A DNA stretch of 64,000 nucleotides from Diabrotica undecimpunctata (taxonomy: Eukaryota > Arthropoda > Insecta > Coleoptera > Chrysomelidae): assembly GCF_040954645.1 (NCBI RefSeq), contig NC_092806.1, forward strand, positions 75,642,141 to 75,706,140. The letters are read 5' to 3'. The notes beneath the pieces were generated by a model. That model saw nothing but the letters and a program-made list of their open reading frames with translations, searched no databases and was not told the DNA's origin. The translations under genes were made by a program, and so were the position numbers. This document shows, one piece after another, positions 36,763 to 62,661 of the stretch; position 1 is the first letter of the stretch, and the number at the start of each line of letters is the position of its first letter.

Positions 36763-39450
36763 TCAGGATAGGTGAGGTAGGTCCAAGGGGTCATGTCGCT
36801 TCAATCTCTTCGCTTGTTGGTTGTTGAGAAGATTGTGTGCCAGGGTATTAGGATGCGCCCGCAACCTGTTTTGATATTGTTCAGAAGTTTTTTTGCACTC
36901 TTCAGAGACTGTTAGTACCTGAAGATCTCTATGTATTGCATCATTCTGGATATACCAAGGTGCATTAGCGATTGTTCTCAGAGTTTTGGATTGGAATCTT
37001 TGTATTATCATAATATTAGATTTGCTAGCTGAACCACAGAGCTGTGAGCCATATGTCCAAATGGGTTTTATTATTGTATTGTATATCAGTAGCTTGTTGT
37101 CAATCGATAGGTGAGAGTTTTTTCCCAACATCCAGTAAAGTTTTCTGTATAAAATTCCCAATTGAAGCCTTTTCGTCCATATATGTTTGGTCCAAGTTAG
37201 ACGTTTGTCAAGGTGAATACCTAAGTATTTTACGTCATGCTTTTGGGGCAAAGGGTGTCGATTTAGGTTAACTTGTGGACATGTACCTCTTCTTAGAGTG
37301 AATGTAATTTGTGTAGATTTTGAGGGGTTTACTCTAATTCTCCAGAGTTTAAGCCATTCATTTGTTTTGTTCAGATGTAGTTGCAGTGTCTCTGATGCTA
37401 TTATTAGGTTGCTATGAGAGGCCAATAAAGCAGTATCATCTGCGAATGTTGCAAGCGTTAGGTTATTGCTTATTGGCAAGTCAGCCGTATATATCAGGTA
37501 CAGAATCGGTCTGAGCACACTACCCTGAGGTACACCAGATAGGATGGGGTAGAGTTTTGTATAGGCTTCACTATATTTTACCAGATATCTCCTTTCTGTA
37601 AGGTATGATTGAAGCAGTTTAAAGTAAGGGTAAGGTAAATTTTTCTTTAATTTGTACAGAAGTCCTGTATGCCACACCTTGTCAAAAGCTTGAGAGGCGT
37701 CTAGAAAGGCTGCAGTACAATATTGCTTGTTCTCGAGACTACTTCTTATTGTTGTGTATAGTCTGTGAACTTGTTCTATTGTACCATGTTGGTTACGAAA
37801 ACCGAATTGATGGTCAGGTATGAGACACTTTTCGTCCAATATTGGTTTGATTTTTCGTAGTAGAAGTTTTTCGAAGACCTTAGAGATGACTGGGAGTAGA
37901 CTAATCGGTCGGTATGAGTTGACATCTTTTGGATCTTTACCAGGTTTTTGAATGAGTATAATCTGTGCCACTTTCCATTGCAGAGGGAAGTAATGCAGAC
38001 TAAGCATGGCATTGAAGATCATAGTGATTATTCTGTAACATTCATTGGTTAGTTCCTGGAGGATCTTACCCGTTATGAGGTCGAATCCCGGAGCCTTATT
38101 GGGTTGTATCTCATTCTTTATTATCTGTTTTACTTCTTTAATATTAAACTTGGTGATTGGTAGATCCATTTGATATGGAGCCTCAAGAAAAGAATTAAAT
38201 GGTTCTTCTTGTTCTAATGGCACTACTCTGTTAAATGGACTAAATACTGTAGAAAGATTTTCAGCGAATGTCTCAGATTTTTCTGTGTCTGTTCTTGCCC
38301 ATTTACCTTTGATATTTTTTAGAGGAGGTATGGCGTCTTGTGGACCTTTTACCTTTCTCGTCGCCTTCCATAGAGAATAATTGGTGTCTTTGGACGGAGT
38401 CAAATTTTCTAAGTAATTTTGGATCCCCCTGTTTTTCTCTTCTTTTAATAGATTTTTGAGTCTTCTGGTAATTCTGTTTAAATTTTGTTTGTCAATAGGA
38501 GCGTGTGTGTTTTGCCACTTTTTCCTAAGTTTTCTTTTCTCATCGATCAGGTTTTTTGCACTTTGCGAACAGTTTATGCTTTCCTTCCATGTTGTTTGTT
38601 CAGGAGTAGAAATCCAACCTGCCTTTTGTATGGAGGTAGTAAGTTGTTGTACCGCATTTTCAATTTGTAATTCTGTTTTAAGTGGCAAGTTCGTTGGTAT
38701 TTGTTCTGCTAGTGCGCTTCGGAATATTTTCCAATTTGTTTGATTATTGGTTAGGACTGGAGGCTTATTTCTGAGTATGATTTTGAAGTCTAGGTCAATT
38801 AGAATGGGAGAATGGTCTGAAGAGAGGTCCCAGCATGATTCTATTGCTAAATAGTTAAGAGAGATACCTTTAATCACACAGAAGTCTAAGAGATCTGGTG
38901 TTTTATTTGGATCTGTAGGCCAATAAGTTGGTTCTCCTGTAGATATGTATTGTAGGTTGTTTCCTGTTATTGACTTCAGCAGTTGTCTACCCCTTGTTGT
39001 AATTACCCTAGAGCCCCAGTGATGATGTTTACAGTTAAAGTCTCCTCCTGCTATGAATTTGTGTCCAAGTGAACTGAAATAGGTGCTAAAGTTGTTTTCG
39101 TTGATTGGTTGACCAGGAGGACAGTAGACCGCAGATAAGGTAAGGTTGCCTAGCCAGTCTTCGATGACAATACTAGTTGATTGCAGGTACTTTTCACTGA
39201 GCTTATTTAACTCATGGTGTTTTATATTAGATTTGATAATAATAGCTGTGCCACCGTGTGCCTTGTCATTTGGATGTTTTGTGTAGTGGACAATGTATTT
39301 TGGAATTTTGATATAGTTTTTGTCTGTTAGATGAGCTTCTGATACAAGCATAACATCAATTTTCTTCTCGTCGAGGAAAATTTTTATTTCTTGGATGTGG
39401 TTCGTTAGGCCATTTGAGTTCCAGACGGCTATTTTAAGTCTGTGTTGCAT
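36763..39450 (-). CDS. Jockey-like ORF2 (endonuclease and reverse transcriptase, 895 aa)
   Basis: The frame is complete. It starts MQHRLKIAVWNSNGLTNHIQ, the AP-endonuclease motif with the active-site Asn, followed by GGDFNCKHHHWGS and SSDHSPILIDL. The RT has NSYRPISLLPVISKVFEKLL, FGFRNQHGTIEQVHRL, FLDASQAFDKVW, LSGVPQGSVLRPILYLIYTA and the catalytic TLATFADDTALLAS. All key acidic residues are present. Its ATG overlaps the ORF1 stop by one base (TAATG), which suggests termination-reinitiation. The protein nicks target DNA and copies element RNA at the nick. It is the best candidate for an active LINE in the window. Confidence 0.92.
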   Translation of the reverse strand: MQHRLKIAVWNSNGLTNHIQEIKIFLDEKKIDVMLVSEAHLTDKNYIKIPKYIVHYTKHPNDKAHGGTAIIIKSNIKHHELNKLSEKYLQSTSIVIEDWLGNLTLSAVYCPPGQPINENNFSTYFSSLGHKFIAGGDFNCKHHHWGSRVITTRGRQLLKSITGNNLQYISTGEPTYWPTDPNKTPDLLDFCVIKGISLNYLAIESCWDLSSDHSPILIDLDFKIILRNKPPVLTNNQTNWKIFRSALAEQIPTNLPLKTELQIENAVQQLTTSIQKAGWISTPEQTTWKESINCSQSAKNLIDEKRKLRKKWQNTHAPIDKQNLNRITRRLKNLLKEEKNRGIQNYLENLTPSKDTNYSLWKATRKVKGPQDAIPPLKNIKGKWARTDTEKSETFAENLSTVFSPFNRVVPLEQEEPFNSFLEAPYQMDLPITKFNIKEVKQIIKNEIQPNKAPGFDLITGKILQELTNECYRIITMIFNAMLSLHYFPLQWKVAQIILIQKPGKDPKDVNSYRPISLLPVISKVFEKLLLRKIKPILDEKCLIPDHQFGFRNQHGTIEQVHRLYTTIRSSLENKQYCTAAFLDASQAFDKVWHTGLLYKLKKNLPYPYFKLLQSYLTERRYLVKYSEAYTKLYPILSGVPQGSVLRPILYLIYTADLPISNNLTLATFADDTALLASHSNLIIASETLQLHLNKTNEWLKLWRIRVNPSKSTQITFTLRRGTCPQVNLNRHPLPQKHDVKYLGIHLDKRLTWTKHIWTKRLQLGILYRKLYWMLGKNSHLSIDNKLLIYNTIIKPIWTYGSQLCGSASKSNIMIIQRFQSKTLRTIANAPWYIQNDAIHRDLQVLTVSEECKKTSEQYQNRLRAHPNTLAHNLLNNQQAKRLKRHDPLDLPHLS

Positions 39451-40891
39451 TAGTGCATTTTGGAAATCATAGTCATAAGAAGATTAAGCATAGTGTCCAT
39501 TCTCTCTACTAGTTTTGTCATCAGGTTTTCAAGGTTGGCAATTTTCGTTGAATGGTTTGAGCCGACATTAGTTTGTTGATTTGTGATTTCATCCGCTTGA
39601 CTATTTCCTGAAGTTTTTTGAGCGTAAGAAACACCAGGGGTTACTCTTTGACTATTGGTTTCATGGGTGTCTGTTCTGTGGGTCTCTTGATTCTTTCTGA
39701 GTTGGGGGAATTTTTCTTTTTGTATTTGTTTGTATACGCTGCAGCCCTTATAGTTGGCCGGATGGTTTCCCATACAAAGTACACATTTTACGTTATTGCT
39801 GCGTTCTTTTCGTGGACAGTGTAAAGTAAGATGATTACTTGCACACTTTACGCATCTTGGAGGCATATGGCAAAATTTTTGTGTGTGACCGTAGCGTTGA
39901 CATTTGGTACATTGGGGAACCTGACGTTTGGGATATGGTGGTTCGAAGGACACAATCATGTTCTGGAGTGCTCTCACATCATATATGTCTTTATTATTTG
40001 GCTTGGTTTTTAATTCTATATAAAAGAGCGGAAGCGCTATTTTGGATCCATTCTTATATATATATTAGCTATGTTGGTTACTTCGTGTCCCATTAATCCT
40101 AGCTCATGTACTAAAGCGTCTTTATCTGCTGTCTGATGCATATTACGAAGCACAACTCGGAATGTTCTTTCTTCCTTTGTTTGGTAGGTGTAATAATGTG
40201 TATTTTTCTCATCGAGTGCTTTGGTTATGTTTCGGTAATATTCAGAAGTTGAGGGCTGGATCTTTACTTGGTTGTTATAGAGACATTTGATGGAATATCC
40301 CAGAGGGGATATTGTTTCTAACAATTGTCGAAGAGGTTGTATATCACCTACATCTGAAACAAATATGGGTGGGGGTTGAATACTTTCTTTAACTGCATCA
40401 GTTCTGGTTTGATTGGTCTCATCAGGTACTTCATCTAAGCTAGCAAATCTATTAGACGTTGGTGTGGGTGCTTTGAGCCAGTAATCGCTCATTATTGTTT
40501 GTTTTAGTTGTTTATCACCTCCAGGGCTGTCATTTCTTGCTCGTTTGTGGGCTTGAACAGTTTTCCATTCTTGATCTTGGTTTTCTTGGCTACCTTGTGG
40601 ATTAGCGATGTATATTTGTGACGGTAGATAAGAAGAAGAAGAAGAAGCATGATTAGAAAGAAAAGAGTTACCTGGTTGTTCATGTTGATTCTCAGTTGAC
40701 TCTGTCTCTTGGAGTACTATATTGGTTGAGCAATTTTCATTCCTTTGTTGTTCGCTAGACAAGGTTCTGTTGCTCGATGGTTGTTGCATGGTAGTTATTT
40801 GCAGATTAGCAGCGTGTTTTTCTGAAGTTGAACTTCTCAGCGGAGATTTGCTCACTTTGTTTGAATTTAAGAACGGATTGTCTATGTCCAT
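39450..40891 (-). pseudogene. Jockey-like ORF1 with one frameshift
   Basis: ORF1 begins at ATG 40891 (MDIDNPFLNSNKVSKSPLRS) and runs 284 codons to a stop at 40037. A one-base shift near 40040 would restore the frame, since text just after it (LPLFYIELKTKPNNKDIYDV) continues the protein into the frame ending at 39450. The second part holds CTKCQRYGHTQKFCHMPPRC and two more CCHC knuckles. This is the RNA-binding, nucleocapsid-like protein of the element. The frameshift probably disables it in this copy, unless it is a sequencing error. Confidence 0.85.
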
Positions 40892-49989: not shown

Positions 49990-51366
<1,377 letters not shown>

Positions 51367-51367
51367 C

Positions 51368-51713
51368 TGTTACGATAAATATACTGGCCTAACTTTTATG
51401 ACTAATTATTCTGTTTTATTGTAGAAATTTCGGTGGAAGTCTAGATTCAAATTATGGTGAATTCTCCAACTAGATATTTCTCGATTTTTCGATGCAAGAC
51501 AAAGCGATCTTTCGATGCTGTTCTAGTATATCAGGATTTCGTATATAAATACAACATTTTTATATGGAGGGCCAGTTAATACTCAAGACCCGCGCTCGCG
51601 AATTTTGTACGTACGGATATAATAAATTATTGTCAGATAAGTTAATATAAATAAAGAAATAAATTAAATCCGTAAGTGTTATAAATATTGAACCTTTTAA
51701 TAAATTCACAACA
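51368..51713 (+). repeat. Gypsy B 5' LTR
   Basis: Starts TGTTACGATAAATATACTGG and ends TAAATTCACAACA. It has a TATATAAATA box at about 51543 and AATAAA near 51650-51656. Confidence 0.95.
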
Positions 51714-51715
51714 AA

Positions 51716-51732
51716 TGGTGTCAGAACAGTGG
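51716..51732 (+). promoter_or_regulatory. Gypsy B primer-binding site
   Basis: TGGTGTCAGAACAGTGG lies two bases after the LTR. It resembles the complement of a tRNA-Leu 3' end; the tRNA identity is inferred. Confidence 0.7.
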
Positions 51733-51789
51733 AATACTTAGATAAATTGCGAAAATAAATTACAAGTGAATATAAAATAAATTGTGAAA

Positions 51790-54700
51790 ATGGCTACGAT
51801 TTATGAGCTGACAGTGACTAATTTAAGAAGACATCTTGAAGACAGAGAATTAGCTTCTACCGGAAAAAAGGCTGAGTTAGTCCAACGACTAAAGAACGCT
51901 TTGCTAGAAGAAGGACTAGATCCAGAGACTTATATATTTGAAGATGCTGTCCTCTCGTCGATTTCGAAAGTTTCCTCTGATGTAGCCAAAGTTTCCGGCG
52001 ACATCGCATCATTGGAGAACAAAGTTTCTGGCGATATTTCGAAAGTTTCTGGTGACATCGCATCATTAGAAAACAAAGTTTCTAACGAGATTTCGTCTCT
52101 GGAAAGTAAAGTTTCTGCTAACATCTCTAAAGTAACTTCTGAGATGTCTGCCCTCGACGATAGAATGTCTTCGCTAAAAAACCAAGTTGCTGCCGATATG
52201 TCGGCCTTCGAAGAAAAGATTAAAGAGATGGAAAGGAAGATGGAGGAAACAGGGACAGCAGAGAGAGGAAACAATCCAATTACAGTGGAGATAAAAGAAG
52301 ACGAGACGAAATGTAAGTTGGAGACACGGCCGAAATTTGAAGGAAGTGGAGGTTCTATTCATGTTAAAGTCCCAACTTTCGACGGAAAATCATCATGGAA
52401 CAACTACATGAAACAGTTCGAATCAGCCGCAAGAGCGAATGGATGGTCTGAAAAAGAAAAGGCTGTAAACCTGACTATCGCTCTTCGAGGAGATGCCTTA
52501 GATGTGCTTCAGACCATAGCCGTAGAGGAGACCGATGATTTCGAACAACTGAAGAAGAGGTTAAATATGCGATATGGCCACGAACATTTGGAGCATGTAT
52601 ATCAGTCACAGCTTAAAAATCGTAGACAGAAGAAAGATGAGGCTCTTCAAGAATATGAGGTAGATATTGCCAGATTAGTACGATATGCTTATCCAACAGC
52701 TCCCGAAGACATGATGGAAAAATTGGCCGTTCAAACGTTTATTGATGGTCTTCGTGATCATGAAATGCAGAGAACACTGCGATTAGCTCGTCACAAGACG
52801 CTGGTTGATGTCTTATCCGCCGCCCTCGAATACGAGTCAGCTACGCAGGCCTCTGGAGGATACAGTAAAGTTAGGACTGTAAAAGAGGAAGGAGATGAAG
52901 ATAAACTTGACCAGCTCGTTAATATGATGAAAATTATTACATGCAAGAAAACGAAGACCATAAAATCAAGAAACTCACCATCAGGAAAACCAGAACGAGT
53001 TGGCTTTAGGGGAGCAGCTTCGACCCGGAACTTTTCCAAAGACCCTCTTATACTAATAGCTTCTTTGAAGTGTCGTGAAGATAGTGTATATGTAGATGGA
53101 GAAATAAATGGTAAAAGACATACGTTGTTGGTGGATACCGGAGCGACCAGAACCATTATACGTCCAACAGTTATAAACAGCCGAAAGAAACTGTTACCAA
53201 CGAGGTTACGACTTCGGACCGCTACAGGTGAAAATGCCAACATTCATGGAGAAATCCAGGTACAATTGGGAATTGGGGCAGAAAAGTTTGTCCATACTGT
53301 TATAGTTGCTGACATCGAAGAGGATGTTATATTAGGAATGGACGTAATGAATATGCATGGATTCCAATTGGATTTTAAGAATAAGGTAATCAAAGTTGGC
53401 AACGAGGAGGTATTTCTCCATCCACATAATGACAACACTGTGCAAGCAGCCATTACAGAAGATACAGTCGTGCCTGCGAGAAGCGAAACGATCATAGTAG
53501 CGCGACTACAGGGAATTGTAGACGAAGGGAGACCTGTTATGATGGAGCCTTGGAACCACGACGATGAGGTTGGCCGTGGAATCATAATTGGAAAGGAATT
53601 GGTGACTTCGGCTAAAGAAATTCCTGTGAGACTTATCAATGTCAACGACTACCCAGTGACCCTAAAGAAAGAGACAAAAGTAGGAACTTGTGTACCTGTG
53701 ACATCCATAATTCGTCAGGCGACAACATCTGATAATTCCAACGACAAATTCGACCAAATGGTTGCAGTTGCAGGACAGTCTCTAAATCAGATGGAGAAAA
53801 GGAAATTAAGGGAATTTCTTCGGCAGTATCGTGATATTTTCGTACCGAAAGGAGGAAAGACGGGAAGAACTACCGTTGTTAAGCATAAAATTGATACTGG
53901 TAATGCTAAGCCAATTCGTCAAACAGCTCGACGATTACCACAGGCGAAGAGAGCGGAAGCTGAAACGATTGTTCAGGAAATGAAGAAAGACGGGGTGATA
54001 GAACCTTCTACGAGTCCATGGGTCTCTCCGGTGGTCCTGGTTAAGAAGAAAGACGGAACGACGAGGTTCTGTGTGGATTACCGTTTGCTGAACAACGTTA
54101 CCAAGAAAGATAGTTATCCTCTGCCTCGGATCGATGACACATTGGACACATTGGCTGGAAGTAAATTGTTTTCTACTTTAGATTTAAAGTCTGGATACTG
54201 GCAGGTAGAAATGGACCCAGTCGATAAAGAAAAGACAGCCTTCACCACAGGATCTGGATTGTGGCAATTCAACGTTATGCCATTTGGACTTTGTAATGCT
54301 CCTGCGACATTTGAGAGGCTTATGGAAAATGTGTTGAGAGGGTTATCTTGGAAAACATGCCTGGTTTATTTAGATGACATAATCGTCTTGGGGGAGACAT
54401 TCGAAGATCATTTGAGGAATTTAGAAAACGTTTTTAATCGACTTAAAGCTGCCCAATTGATGCTAAACCCCAAGAAGTGCCAGCTATTTCAAGGTAAAGT
54501 CAATTATCTGGGTCATATAGTCAGTAAAGAAGGAGTGGCCGTGGATAAGGGAAAAATCGATTCCATTAAGGAATGGCCAAAACCAACTGACAAACATCAA
54601 GTGAGAAGTTTTCTTGGACTATGTACTTACTACCGGAGGTTTATTAAGAAGTTTGCAGATATCGCTAAGCCATTAACGCGACTTACAGAGGAAGCAAGAG

Positions 54701-57222
54701 AATACCGCTGGGATATAGACTGCCAAAATGCCTTTGAAACTTTGAAAAAGCATTTAATAACAGCACCAATTTTAGGGTATCCACTGCCAGAAGGAGAGTT
54801 CATCTTAGATACAGATGCAAGTAATGTGGGAATTGGAGGAGTGCTGTCTCAGATTCAAGGAGGACAGGAACGAGTCCTCGGATATTTTAGTAAAGTTCTT
54901 TCAAAACCTGAGCGGAATTATTGCGTCACGAGAAGAGAACTTCTGGCAGTAGTGAAATCAGTAGAGCACTTCTATCAATACCTCTATGGAAGAAAGTTTC
55001 TAATCCGAACCGACCATGCCGCCCTTAAGTGGTTGATGCAGTTTAAGAATCCAGAGGGTCAGATAGCCAGGTGGATCGAACGACTCCAAGAATACGATTT
55101 TAAGATTGAGCACCGGGCCGGAGTTAGCCACAGAAACGCTGATTCTCTTTCCAGAAGGCCATGCTCAGCAGAGTGTTCCCACTGCAACAAAACGGAATCC
55201 AAGGAAGCAGCAGTGCTAAGAACGACGATTGTCAACGACGACTGGACGCCTACTAAGATTAGGGAAGAACAAGAGAGAGACCCAGTTATACAGAAAATCC
55301 GAAAATGGAAAGAGGAAAACCGTCGACCACCTTGGCAGGAAATATCAAACCTATGCTCAGTAGTTAAGACGTATTGGGCCCAGTGGGACTCATTTATCAT
55401 CGAAGATGGCTTGCTTAAACGAGTCCTGGAAAATGATGACGGTTCAGAGAAGAGAAGACAGTTGGTGATCCCAAAGAGCAGAATAGCCGAAGTACTTCGT
55501 CAGTTACACGACAGTCCATCGGGAGGGCATTTTGGTGTAAGGAAAACCCTTCAGCGAATTCGGGAACGGTTTTATTGGATGAACAGTTCCGACGATGTAA
55601 AAGACTGGTGTAAGAAATGTACTATTTGTGCCACGAGTAACGGGCCTTACCGAAAAAGGAGAGCTCCTATGAGACAATATAATGTTGGAAGCCCGTTTGA
55701 AAGAATAGCTTTGGACATCGCTGGGCCATTTCCAGAAAGTGAAAATGGAGGCAAGTACATGCTGGTAGTAATGGATTACTTCAGTAAGTGGGTCGAGATT
55801 TACGCACTTCCAGACCAGAAGGCCGCCACCGTTGCAGATAAGTTGATCCAAGAATATATCAGCCGATTTGGAGTGCCTTTGGAGATCCATAGTGACCAAG
55901 GCAGGAACTTCGAAAGCGATCTATTCCAAGGAATATGTGATAGACTAGGCATGAAGAAAACAAGAACTACAGCATATCATCCGCAATCTGATGGTATGGT
56001 AGAACGGATGAATAGGACAGTTGGCAAATATTTGACAAAGATGGTGTCCGATCATCAGCGAGACTGGGACCAATACCTTCCGTTCTTCACAATGGCCTAC
56101 AGATCTGCTGTTAACGAATCAACAGGCCAGACACCAGCGAAAGTCCTATTCGGACGCGAAATGCGACTACCTTGTGATCTAGAGTTTGGGTGTCGACCTG
56201 GAGAAGATGTAGCAGGTGAAGATTATGTGATCGAATTACGAAGAAGAATGGACGATGTACATGAGTTGGTCCGTTCCCACCTTCAGATCGCTAGCGACCG
56301 AATGAAGAAACGGTACGATACACAAGCCGAAAAGGGTTGCTTTAAGAAGAACGACAAAGTATGGCTGTATAATCCCAAGAAGCGAAAAGGTTGTTCTCCC
56401 AAATTGCAGCAGTTTTGGGAAGGTCCATACCTCATTATGGAGAAGATCAACGATGTCATCTACCGAATAAGCAAGATTCCGAAGGGAAAGCCGATGATAG
56501 TACACCATAACCGGCTGGCGTCTTTCGAAGGTGACCACGACGTAGATGAAGAAGTGGAAGTAAACCAAGTCCACGATGTGTCTGACCTCACGTTTGAGGA
56601 ATTCATGGGTGCCTATGGAGGTACCGGTAAAGCAAGACATGGTGTTACCACTGAAGAAAAGCAAGATCTACTCGCGCTCCCCGATGACTACTCGCTGGCC
56701 CTTACCATCCCGGCCAGTATCAAAGACGCACCAGGGTTGGCATCCGTCTTTCGAAGGAAGTTTGGTCGAGTTGCAGAACTTCAATGCCAGGTGCCAGCTC
56801 CCGGTAAAACCTTGAAACTCCAAGATGCATCACGTTACCTTTTCTACCTGGTAACAAAAGACACTGCCCGTGACCAACCTACCTACCGAGATGTATGGGA
56901 AGCCTTACTTCAATTGAGAGAGCACGTACTAGAGTCCGACGTGCAAAAGTTAGCCATGCCAAAGTTGGAGTGCCGCCAATTAGATTGGAGGGTTATCCGA
57001 AATATGGTGGAGGAGATCTTTAAAGACACCGAAGTCCAGGTGTTAGTCTGTTGCAATCCGCATAGTTACTGGTGCGGAGAGAAAACCGTCCCTTGTCATT
57101 TTTATACAACTGGAAGTTGTAAAAGAGGGTCCAGTTGCCGATACCAGCATACAGTTCCGGTTCCAGTCCCGACAAGGTTCCAGGAGGAACCATCTTTTAA
57201 GAGGGGGGCAATGTTACGATAA
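51790..57222 (+). CDS. Gypsy B gag-pol polyprotein with macro-like domain and CCCH finger (1810 aa)
   Basis: I chose ATG 51790 (MATIYELTVTNLRRHLEDRE); the codon at 51784 is GTG. Domains by residue: SAP-like DNA-binding fold (about 3-45); coiled coil with a repeated KVSGDIASLENKVS pattern (about 55-155); gag capsid (about 190-370) with no CCHC knuckle; aspartic protease (DTGA at 449); RT (YLDD 860-863); RNase H (about 1005-1125); integrase with zinc motif (about 1239-1285) and DDE at D1309, D1369, E1405 (35-residue spacing); GPY/F-like end (about 1540-1560). Residues about 1625-1755 resemble the TARG1/OARD1 macro domain: LLALPDDYSLALTIPAS, GLASVFRRKFGRVAELQ, YLFYLVTKDTARDQPTYRDV. The lysine matching the TARG1 catalytic Lys is kept (K1690); the GCGLD loop is not (MPKLECRQLDW from 1723). 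A CCCH finger (C-X7-C-X5-C-X3-H) spans 1769-1787. The stop is inside the 3' LTR. Integrase and RT roles are certain; the role of the last two domains is inference. Confidence 0.92.
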   Translation: MATIYELTVTNLRRHLEDRELASTGKKAELVQRLKNALLEEGLDPETYIFEDAVLSSISKVSSDVAKVSGDIASLENKVSGDISKVSGDIASLENKVSNEISSLESKVSANISKVTSEMSALDDRMSSLKNQVAADMSAFEEKIKEMERKMEETGTAERGNNPITVEIKEDETKCKLETRPKFEGSGGSIHVKVPTFDGKSSWNNYMKQFESAARANGWSEKEKAVNLTIALRGDALDVLQTIAVEETDDFEQLKKRLNMRYGHEHLEHVYQSQLKNRRQKKDEALQEYEVDIARLVRYAYPTAPEDMMEKLAVQTFIDGLRDHEMQRTLRLARHKTLVDVLSAALEYESATQASGGYSKVRTVKEEGDEDKLDQLVNMMKIITCKKTKTIKSRNSPSGKPERVGFRGAASTRNFSKDPLILIASLKCREDSVYVDGEINGKRHTLLVDTGATRTIIRPTVINSRKKLLPTRLRLRTATGENANIHGEIQVQLGIGAEKFVHTVIVADIEEDVILGMDVMNMHGFQLDFKNKVIKVGNEEVFLHPHNDNTVQAAITEDTVVPARSETIIVARLQGIVDEGRPVMMEPWNHDDEVGRGIIIGKELVTSAKEIPVRLINVNDYPVTLKKETKVGTCVPVTSIIRQATTSDNSNDKFDQMVAVAGQSLNQMEKRKLREFLRQYRDIFVPKGGKTGRTTVVKHKIDTGNAKPIRQTARRLPQAKRAEAETIVQEMKKDGVIEPSTSPWVSPVVLVKKKDGTTRFCVDYRLLNNVTKKDSYPLPRIDDTLDTLAGSKLFSTLDLKSGYWQVEMDPVDKEKTAFTTGSGLWQFNVMPFGLCNAPATFERLMENVLRGLSWKTCLVYLDDIIVLGETFEDHLRNLENVFNRLKAAQLMLNPKKCQLFQGKVNYLGHIVSKEGVAVDKGKIDSIKEWPKPTDKHQVRSFLGLCTYYRRFIKKFADIAKPLTRLTEEAREYRWDIDCQNAFETLKKHLITAPILGYPLPEGEFILDTDASNVGIGGVLSQIQGGQERVLGYFSKVLSKPERNYCVTRRELLAVVKSVEHFYQYLYGRKFLIRTDHAALKWLMQFKNPEGQIARWIERLQEYDFKIEHRAGVSHRNADSLSRRPCSAECSHCNKTESKEAAVLRTTIVNDDWTPTKIREEQERDPVIQKIRKWKEENRRPPWQEISNLCSVVKTYWAQWDSFIIEDGLLKRVLENDDGSEKRRQLVIPKSRIAEVLRQLHDSPSGGHFGVRKTLQRIRERFYWMNSSDDVKDWCKKCTICATSNGPYRKRRAPMRQYNVGSPFERIALDIAGPFPESENGGKYMLVVMDYFSKWVEIYALPDQKAATVADKLIQEYISRFGVPLEIHSDQGRNFESDLFQGICDRLGMKKTRTTAYHPQSDGMVERMNRTVGKYLTKMVSDHQRDWDQYLPFFTMAYRSAVNESTGQTPAKVLFGREMRLPCDLEFGCRPGEDVAGEDYVIELRRRMDDVHELVRSHLQIASDRMKKRYDTQAEKGCFKKNDKVWLYNPKKRKGCSPKLQQFWEGPYLIMEKINDVIYRISKIPKGKPMIVHHNRLASFEGDHDVDEEVEVNQVHDVSDLTFEEFMGAYGGTGKARHGVTTEEKQDLLALPDDYSLALTIPASIKDAPGLASVFRRKFGRVAELQCQVPAPGKTLKLQDASRYLFYLVTKDTARDQPTYRDVWEALLQLREHVLESDVQKLAMPKLECRQLDWRVIRNMVEEIFKDTEVQVLVCCNPHSYWCGEKTVPCHFYTTGSCKRGSSCRYQHTVPVPVPTRFQEEPSFKRGAMLR
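57201..57211 (+). promoter_or_regulatory. Gypsy B polypurine tract
   Basis: GAGGGGGGCAA abuts the 3' LTR. It primes plus-strand DNA synthesis and is also translated, as part of the polyprotein end. Confidence 0.8.
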
Positions 57223-57557
57223 ATATACTGGCCTAACTTTTATGACTAATTATTCTGTTTTATTGTAGAAATTTCGGTGGAAGTCTAGATTCAAATTATG
57301 GTGAATTCTCCAACTAGATATTTCTCGATTTTTCGATGCAAGACAAAGCGATCTTTCGATGCTGTTCTAGTATATCAGGATTTCGTATATAAATACAACA
57401 TTTTTATATGGAGGGCCAGTTAATACTCAAGACCCGCGCTCGCGAATTTTGTACGTACGGATATAATAAATTATTGTCAGATAAGTTAATATAAATAAAG
57501 AAATAAATTAAATCCGTAAGTGTTATAAATATTGAACCTTTTAATAAATTCACAACA
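57212..57557 (+). repeat. Gypsy B 3' LTR
   Basis: I see no difference from the 5' LTR. The polyprotein TAA stop (57220-57222) lies in its first 11 bases. Confidence 0.95.
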
Positions 57558-57561
57558 ATAC

Positions 57562-61785: not shown

Positions 61786-62661
61786 TTAAGTGTGATCTGT
61801 GTCCGTCCAAAAACAGTATAACCGGAAACTGCACTTTTGAGCAACTAACCAAGGGTGGAATATATTAGTGATGTACTCAAGAAAGTTTTCGCCAGGCATC
61901 CACCCATTTTCAGACTTTCCTATCCCCCAGTGAGCCAGTATTTTCTCGATAACTGATTTGGCAATTCTTGTATATTTAAAAACTATCATGGGTGGTAAAA
62001 TTTGACCGGAGACACTACAGGTAACCAAAGTTGTCAGACATTCCTTCTCGTCGTTGCTAACAAACGACTTAACAATTCTATCTCCCATTCTAACCAACAC
62101 TTTGTCTCCCTTAGGAGTCAGGAAAAAAACCGATTCATCACAATTGAATACACGACTACGATCAAAAGTTATGTTGCGAATGTTTTTACTTTCTAAAAAG
62201 GTCCCTACTTCAATAAACCATTGACGAATTCGATTTTCTGTTATAGTATTTTTAGCACAAGTTAGGTTTTGGGAAATTCTTGTAGATAGTTCGGGATGCT
62301 TTTTTAAAAATAGTTCGTACCATTTACGTCCAGGCCTACCATCCACGAAATTATTAGGCCTATTAAGTTCTTTAAGCAATAGCTGAACACTATCGAACAA
62401 CTGCGTTTTAGTTGCAGGAAATCTACAGGTTGCAATCGGAAATAGCCATGCTACCAGTAGGTTTTCTTCTTCTTCTGTTAGTGTGGTCCCTGGTCCAGAT
62501 TTCTTCTCTAAAGAAGTTCTACCCTTTACTTTGTCCTGTAGAGTCGATCTGGATACCTTATACAACTTACTAGCTGTTTTAAATGGCATTTTTGACTGAA
62601 CAGCTACAACAGCTTTGTTTATATCTGCCGCAGAATATTGAATTCGCTTTCTCTTTTCCAT
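61786..62661 (-). pseudogene. Pogo-like transposase, N-terminal and catalytic part (291 aa frame)
   Basis: ATG at 62661 opens MEKRKRIQYSAADINKAVVA, a psq-type helix-turn-helix. A CENP-B-like HTH follows (GRPGRKWYELFLKKHPELST), then the DDE domain with FNCDESVFFLTPKGDK holding the first Asp. Near 61845 the frame shifts: the correct continuation, VILFLDGHRSH with the second Asp, is in another frame. So the catalytic core is complete in content but broken in frame. It binds the transposon ends and cuts them. Confidence 0.85.

Follow-up and report, generated by a model that had tools for sequence, protein, structure and literature searches.

A TARG1-type macro domain, very probably without hydrolase activity, follows the integrase of a Ty3/Gypsy retrotransposon in Diabrotica undecimpunctata

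The closest known system to the domain described here is TARG1 (also OARD1 or C6orf130; PDB entries 4j5r, 4j5s and 2eee), a cellular ADP-ribosylhydrolase of the ALC1 macrodomain type. According to the accessible portion of PMC6397177, K84 of TARG1 attacks the ribose, while D125, which sits in a loop whose GxG holds the pyrophosphate, resolves the lysyl intermediate; the same text gives TKx(30,35)Px[IL]GxGxD as the TARG1 pattern. Among retroelements, fish retroviruses are reported to have a macro domain in additional open reading frames (ORFs; PMC4977317, accessible portion), and Ty3/Gypsy elements of Phalaenopsis have acquired an AlkB-like m6A demethylase domain that was active in vitro (PMC9289625, accessible portion). 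ADP-ribosylation has also been tied to the control of retrotransposons, SIRT6 modifying KAP1 at L1 (PMC4695847, accessible portion). We describe here a TARG1-type macro domain encoded in frame with the polyprotein of a Ty3/Gypsy retrotransposon in a stretch of 64,000 nucleotides (hereafter, the window) from the beetle Diabrotica undecimpunctata (contig NC_092806.1, positions 75,642,141 to 75,706,140 of the forward strand). In the group of elements to which the window copy belongs, the domain has lost the catalytic D125 together with its loop.

The macro domain lies at window positions 56662-57051 and corresponds to residues 1627-1756 of a single, stop-free Gag-Pol ORF of 1812 codons (51784-57222, on the + strand like all features of the element; the GTG start was assigned mechanically and the first in-frame ATG is at 51790). 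It is preceded by a linker, EFMGAYGGTGKARHGVTTEEK (56599-56661), that alignments show to be recognizable in both groups of relatives described below. When the 207 residues encoded by 56599-57222 were compared with PDB sequences using phmmer, residues 10-150 matched the human C6orf130/TARG1 entry 2eee_A (E=1.7e-22, 83 bits), and the five top matches of the 34 obtained were all TARG1/C6orf130 entries. Structure prediction and comparison indicated a macro fold, closest to TARG1; ten-residue blocks had predicted local distance difference test (pLDDT) values of 89-98, except for residues 41-60 (73 and 80). Counting against the reality of the domain, Pfam Macro (PF01661) gave no match to it at E<=10, the gathering cut-off not being reached, so that an analysis by Pfam only would have led to the domain being discarded. 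This family scored 17.4, 18.7 and 20.7 against a cut-off of 22 for three distant relatives (P0020, P0026 and P0053, respectively), and 27.2 for the vertebrate protein P0009. There is hardly any doubt that the window encodes a TARG1-type macro domain homologous to the cellular enzyme.

A preliminary description of this locus had proposed a TARG1-like macro domain, at 56662..57060, fused in frame to a Gypsy polyprotein. The four stretches of residues it named were all found in frame, its placement was near the measured one, and the sequence match, the predicted fold (structural comparison having been run and having returned TARG1 as the closest relative) and the recurrence of the fusion in other proteins all bear the proposal out. 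Calling the copy intact and recent was also fair, given its identical long terminal repeats (LTRs), ATAC repeats and open 1812-codon ORF. Two features had been overlooked. One is a CCCH zinc finger (C-x7-C-x5-C-x3-H; residues 1771-1789, 57094-57150) directly after the domain, detected by motif scan and by Pfam (PF00642, E=1e-6, 29 bits, cut-off 20.5); the other is the loss of D125 with its loop.

The same arrangement was looked for elsewhere. Restricting the polyprotein query to residues 1600-1780 retrieved P0002, and a query with the C-terminal piece gave six matches. P0002, a polyprotein of 1339 amino acids (69% identical), contains protease to integrase, the macro domain and the CCCH motif in one protein. 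P0003 contains the integrase end, the macro domain and the CCCH motif, as does P0004, in which the integrase end is weak (E=0.0011). Gene models of Diabrotica virgifera accounted for four of the six C-terminal matches: P0005 and P0006, named OARD1-like, contain the linker and the macro domain without integrase or CCCH finger, while P0007 and P0008 are fragments. The macro domain of P0007 breaks off, by eye, into a DDE transposase-like sequence, probably because a DNA transposon has inserted into this copy. P0008, a tachykinin-like receptor 86C model, includes a short piece of the macro domain, which points to exonisation of a retrotransposon fragment or else to an annotation error. Gene models named OARD1-like in beetles such as Diabrotica can be pieces of retrotransposons, a warning for annotation.

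Three more distant relatives, P0020, P0026 and P0053, were found by a profile search, six of whose best 120 matches (of 1223) were element proteins; the profile included human TARG1, which biased it toward vertebrates, and further fusions and insect TARG1s may lie among the matches beyond these 120. P0026, named from Brassicogethes aeneus, represents a cluster of 6 sequences; the cluster of P0053, named from Pyrocoelia pectoralis, has 11. P0053 aligned to the window from the integrase end (PxGKPxxVHxNRL) through the linker and the macro domain to the LTR-adjacent tail (40% identity over 250 columns), and P0020 was likewise collinear from integrase end to tail (44%, 244 columns); P0026 begins in the linker and has linker, macro domain and tail. 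The CCCH motif was found by pattern in the window, P0002, P0003, P0004 and P0020; in P0026 it lacks the first cysteine, and none was found in P0053. Every relative that carries a species name comes from a beetle, and three families are represented (Chrysomelidae, Nitidulidae and Lampyridae). In this Ty3/Gypsy lineage, a TARG1-homologous macro domain follows the integrase, with a CCCH finger behind it in several members. Scans of IMG/VR, which reach close relatives only, gave no pattern match with the macro-CCCH region and a single, unconfirmed pattern match with the RT-integrase region (RT, reverse transcriptase), and added no relatives.

The nine element proteins (the window, P0002-P0006 and the three distant relatives) all contain D20, L21, T83 and K84 of TARG1, and fall into two groups according to the catalytic loop. 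P0020 and P0053 (both GCGLD) and P0026 (ACGLD) retain D125 as well as TK; D125 is also present in all 13 vertebrate OARD1s included in the tree described below. In the window, the counterpart of the human TARG1 segment MPRIGCGLDRLQW is a degenerate loop, MPKLECRQLDW (56956-56988), which is two residues shorter and has E in place of G121, as in P0002, P0003, P0004 and P0005. The residue at the D125 position is R in the window, N in P0002, S in P0003, H in P0004 and R in P0005; no window-clade protein long enough to include the loop, five in all, therefore has D125 (P0006 ends before it). The D in the window's RQLDW corresponds to position 128 of TARG1 and not to 125, with K there in P0002 and N in P0004, and the window has L at the position of H32. 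The published TARG1 pattern was matched by none of the six window-clade proteins (P0006 being too short), by two of the three distant relatives (P0020 and P0053; P0026 only if A is allowed for the first G) and by 112 of the 114 other matches, P0071 and P0082 being the exceptions. Judged from these residues, the window copy very probably has no hydrolase activity. Removal of ADP-ribose by this copy, as put forward in the preliminary description, is not supported, its clade lacking the GxGxD loop with D125 and failing the published pattern.

In a tree, the nine element domains were split from the 13 vertebrate OARD1s at 100/100. The six window-clade domains formed one group (100/99), in which the window domain grouped with two Diabrotica rows. 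The remaining three, P0020, P0026 and P0053, were not resolved as a group; a branch separating them from the other domains was present in 14% of bootstrap trees. Since D125 is kept in every row outside the window's group, its loss within that group is the economical reading, and the tree and the residues together point to a single capture followed by loss of the loop as the probable history.

The best explanation overall, which we consider to have about an even chance of being right, is that a captured TARG1 was disarmed in the window's clade and kept as a binding or tethering module. A Ty3/Gypsy lineage would have captured a catalytically complete TARG1 domain once; the window's clade would then have lost loop 3 (GxGxD, including D125), with the fold, the adenine-side D20 and L21, T83 and the nucleophile K84 staying in place. 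The integrase of the window copy would have at its C-terminus a pseudo-macrodomain incapable of hydrolysis, most likely a binding or tethering module, to which the CCCH finger would add contact with RNA. Members of the other group, with both K84 and D125 in place, could still use the domain to strip ADP-ribose from proteins of the host or of the element. As the window element is young and intact-looking and has a disarmed domain, it can probably spread without hydrolysis. In chromoviruses, a chromodomain, which serves targeting, follows the GPY/F domain of the integrase. The module of the window element lies at this same place, which favours binding or tethering; that the role would be tethering or targeting, and not some other kind of binding, is a tentative suggestion and less likely than not.

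Whether the disarmed domain is still kept was assessed by a protein-level surrogate, in which the kind of substitution was compared with that in 500 neutral simulations, each stopped at the observed identity. Substitutions were more conservative than under neutrality, values as high being reached in 2/500 runs for P0002, 8/500 for P0003 and 0/500 for P0004. The alignments with P0002-P0006 were gap-free over 130, 130, 130, 121 and 101 residues, respectively, for which the neutral runs gave means of 2.5, 2.1, 3.3, 2.0 and 1.4 stops. At the protein level, purifying selection is favoured in three of the five comparisons and more weakly in two. Identity between the window and P0002 was 91% for the RT, 85% for the integrase core, 80% for the protease, 78% for the protease-RT linker, 71% (17/24) for the CCCH finger, 69% for the macro domain, 68% for the integrase end (residues 1531-1600) and 62% for the linker that follows the integrase. 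These values fit a C-terminal module that is constrained and fast-evolving, and would also be compatible with slow decay. On balance, a selectively kept module is somewhat better favoured than a relic.

Several observations weigh against a captured and retained module. The signal of constraint was weaker against P0005 (31/500) and P0006 (21/500). The ORFs in the database are preselected as open, which leaves little weight to the absence of stops and more to the conservative substitutions; moreover, the need for the CCCH finger would alone hold the frame open. The identity of the macro domain is below that of the RT, the integrase core and even the protease-RT linker, and near that of the integrase end and the linker following it. 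Among the window, P0002, P0003 and P0004 (P0005 and P0006 were left out), residues of the former pocket were invariant at 7/12 positions versus 53/118 elsewhere (p=0.55); the pocket is thus not specially conserved, and continued binding of ADP-ribose is not supported. P0020, P0026 and P0053 contain neither RT nor integrase core, and their element origin would rest on collinearity (P0020 and P0053) or on the succession of linker, macro domain and tail (P0026). No insect host TARG1 was present among the best 120 of 1223 matches, so the two groups might also go back to more than one capture, from a closely related donor. The Brachycera and a second suborder, rich in mosquitoes, are both flies. 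It is only from these two groups that the accessible portion of PMC6397177 reports insect matches to the TARG1 pattern. Tethering, finally, would be an analogy of position only.

Some of these points would be expected if the domain were a decaying passenger, which was once useful and now survives only as a folded, tolerated spacer, the frame having to stay open up to the CCCH finger. The active loop is lost, the domain is less similar to P0002 (69%) than are the RT (91%) and the protease-RT linker (78%), pocket residues are not more conserved than others, and constraint is weaker for P0005 and P0006. Against decay stand the conservative substitutions relative to P0002, P0003 and P0004, gap-free over 130 residues, and the confident predicted fold over most of the domain (all blocks at 89-98 pLDDT apart from the 73 and 80 of residues 41-60). 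We regard a passenger as rather unlikely, yet as the strongest competitor of a retained binding module.

The pseudo-macrodomain and the CCCH finger could instead act together in packaging or handling the RNA of the element, replacing a missing Gag zinc knuckle. No CCHC knuckle pattern was found in the polyprotein by motif scan, the CCCH finger scores above its Pfam cut-off, and some viral macrodomains bind G-quadruplexes (PMC6397177, accessible portion). However, the macro domains of the window's clade are near neutral (net charge -2 to +3; +6 to +10 in P0020, P0026 and P0053), which does not suggest a basic nucleic-acid-binding surface, and this candidate feature was rejected for that clade. 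The finger, moreover, is incomplete in P0026 and was not found in P0053, and other members of the lineage may well have a knuckle that the window copy lacks, as no Gag was seen in the relatives retrieved. A nucleic-acid module of this kind is unlikely.

An active hydrolase that strips the marks of host poly(ADP-ribose) polymerases (PARPs), the role suggested, as speculation, for the window domain in the preliminary description, agrees with the TARG1 homology and fold, with T83 and K84 in all nine element proteins and with D125 in P0020, P0026 and P0053. For the window's clade it is opposed by the shortened GxG pyrophosphate loop, by E for G121, by R, N, S or H at position 125 in the five proteins reaching the loop, by the unmatched TARG1 pattern, by the L at the H32 position and by the D of RQLDW, which lies at position 128 and is not constant in the clade; such activity is very improbable. 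Counter-defence by removal of ADP-ribose is unsupported for the window copy and might, as a speculation, be possible in relatives that keep K84 and D125. It is doubtful whether the beetle lineage fused TARG1 to its integrase to erase a host ADP-ribosylation that restrains retrotransposition, with one group still catalytically complete and the window clade turned into a non-catalytic reader or decoy after a shift of the host target. That a host OARD1 gene adjoining or interrupted by a retrotransposon was misread as a fusion, as the two Diabrotica models named OARD1-like might suggest, is a practically negligible explanation and was rejected, since the identical LTRs enclose a single ORF that encodes both Pol and the domain, and the fusion is seen again in independent elements (in the 1339-aa polyprotein, and collinearly in P0020 and P0053).

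The complete element, delimited by LTR comparison, ORF and Pfam matches, spans 51368-57557. Its 5′ LTR (51368-51713) and 3′ LTR (57212-57557) each run 346 bp from TG to CA without a difference between them (the next base is also the same, giving 347 matching), and are flanked by a 4-bp ATAC target-site duplication (51364-51367 and 57558-57561). The ORF stops 11 nt inside the 3′ LTR, and a purine-rich tract directly before this LTR (57200-57211) is read in frame near the C-terminus. Pfam identified a SAP domain at the N-terminus of Gag (residues 9-40, 51808-51903; PF02037, E=1.2e-5, 25.2 bits, cut-off 23.9), retrotransposon Gag (231-325, 52474-52758; PF03732, E=2e-7), an aspartic protease (437-523, 53092-53352; PF13975, E=4.7e-11), RT (753-913, 54040-54522; PF00078, E=2.3e-38), RNase H (1002-1104, 54787-55095; PF17917, E=2.9e-34), and the H2C2 zinc-binding domain (1229-1286; PF17921, E=7e-21) and rve core (1305-1400; PF00665, E=1.3e-13) of the integrase (55468-55983). 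The integrase C-terminal domain is p58_C (1547-1579, 56422-56520; PF22938, E=3.6e-12), which we take to be GPY/F. This order of protease, RT, RNase H and integrase with a p58_C-type end, and the LTRs with their target-site duplication, are those of a Ty3/Gypsy LTR element. Among the 25 shown of 42 Pfam families, there was nothing between the integrase C-terminal domain and the CCCH finger, and no chromodomain. The window was also scanned for tRNAs as a clue to the primer, and none was found.

Elsewhere in the window, a second Ty3/Gypsy element (44-2950, - strand) is 46% identical in RT-RNase H, its C-terminus falling outside the window. A TA-type simple repeat (51092-51337; its frame reads YIYIYI...) lies just upstream of the element. 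By eye, ORFs at 36763-40891 (-) resemble a non-LTR retrotransposon, with endonuclease and reverse transcriptase, and an ORF at 61786-62661 (-) resembles a pogo/Tigger-type transposase.

A literature search of limited reach, with subscription papers mostly outside it, brought up no published Ty3/Gypsy polyprotein with a fused macro or TARG1 domain, and no intact/disarmed pair; the fish retroviruses (PMC4977317, accessible portion) were the only related lead. Macro domains are present in some viruses, alphavirus entries for example being among the fold-comparison matches. The complete-looking and the disarmed version of TARG1 in one lineage form a natural comparison with which to ask if elements erase the ADP-ribose mark or read it, and may point to a conflict between ADP-ribose signalling and mobile elements that has gone unnoticed. 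Compared with TARG1 itself, the window domain lies inside a retrotransposon polyprotein, with an N-terminal linker and a C-terminal CCCH finger added; the positions of Y150 and L152 are not kept, and the GxGxD loop with D125 is lost in its clade. Where chromoviruses have their extra domain after the integrase, the window element has a macro domain and a CCCH finger instead. The macro domain of the fish retroviruses is in extra ORFs, while that of the window is in frame with the Pol of a Ty3/Gypsy element. The Phalaenopsis elements (PMC9289625, accessible portion) are likewise Ty3/Gypsy elements whose acquired domain is of a host type and can erase a modification, but domain and modification are different, the AlkB domain being in an additional ORF and active in vitro, and the macro domain being in frame. 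Capture of host domains by LTR retroelements is already known, and a TARG1 macro domain within a Ty3/Gypsy polyprotein is a new variant of it.

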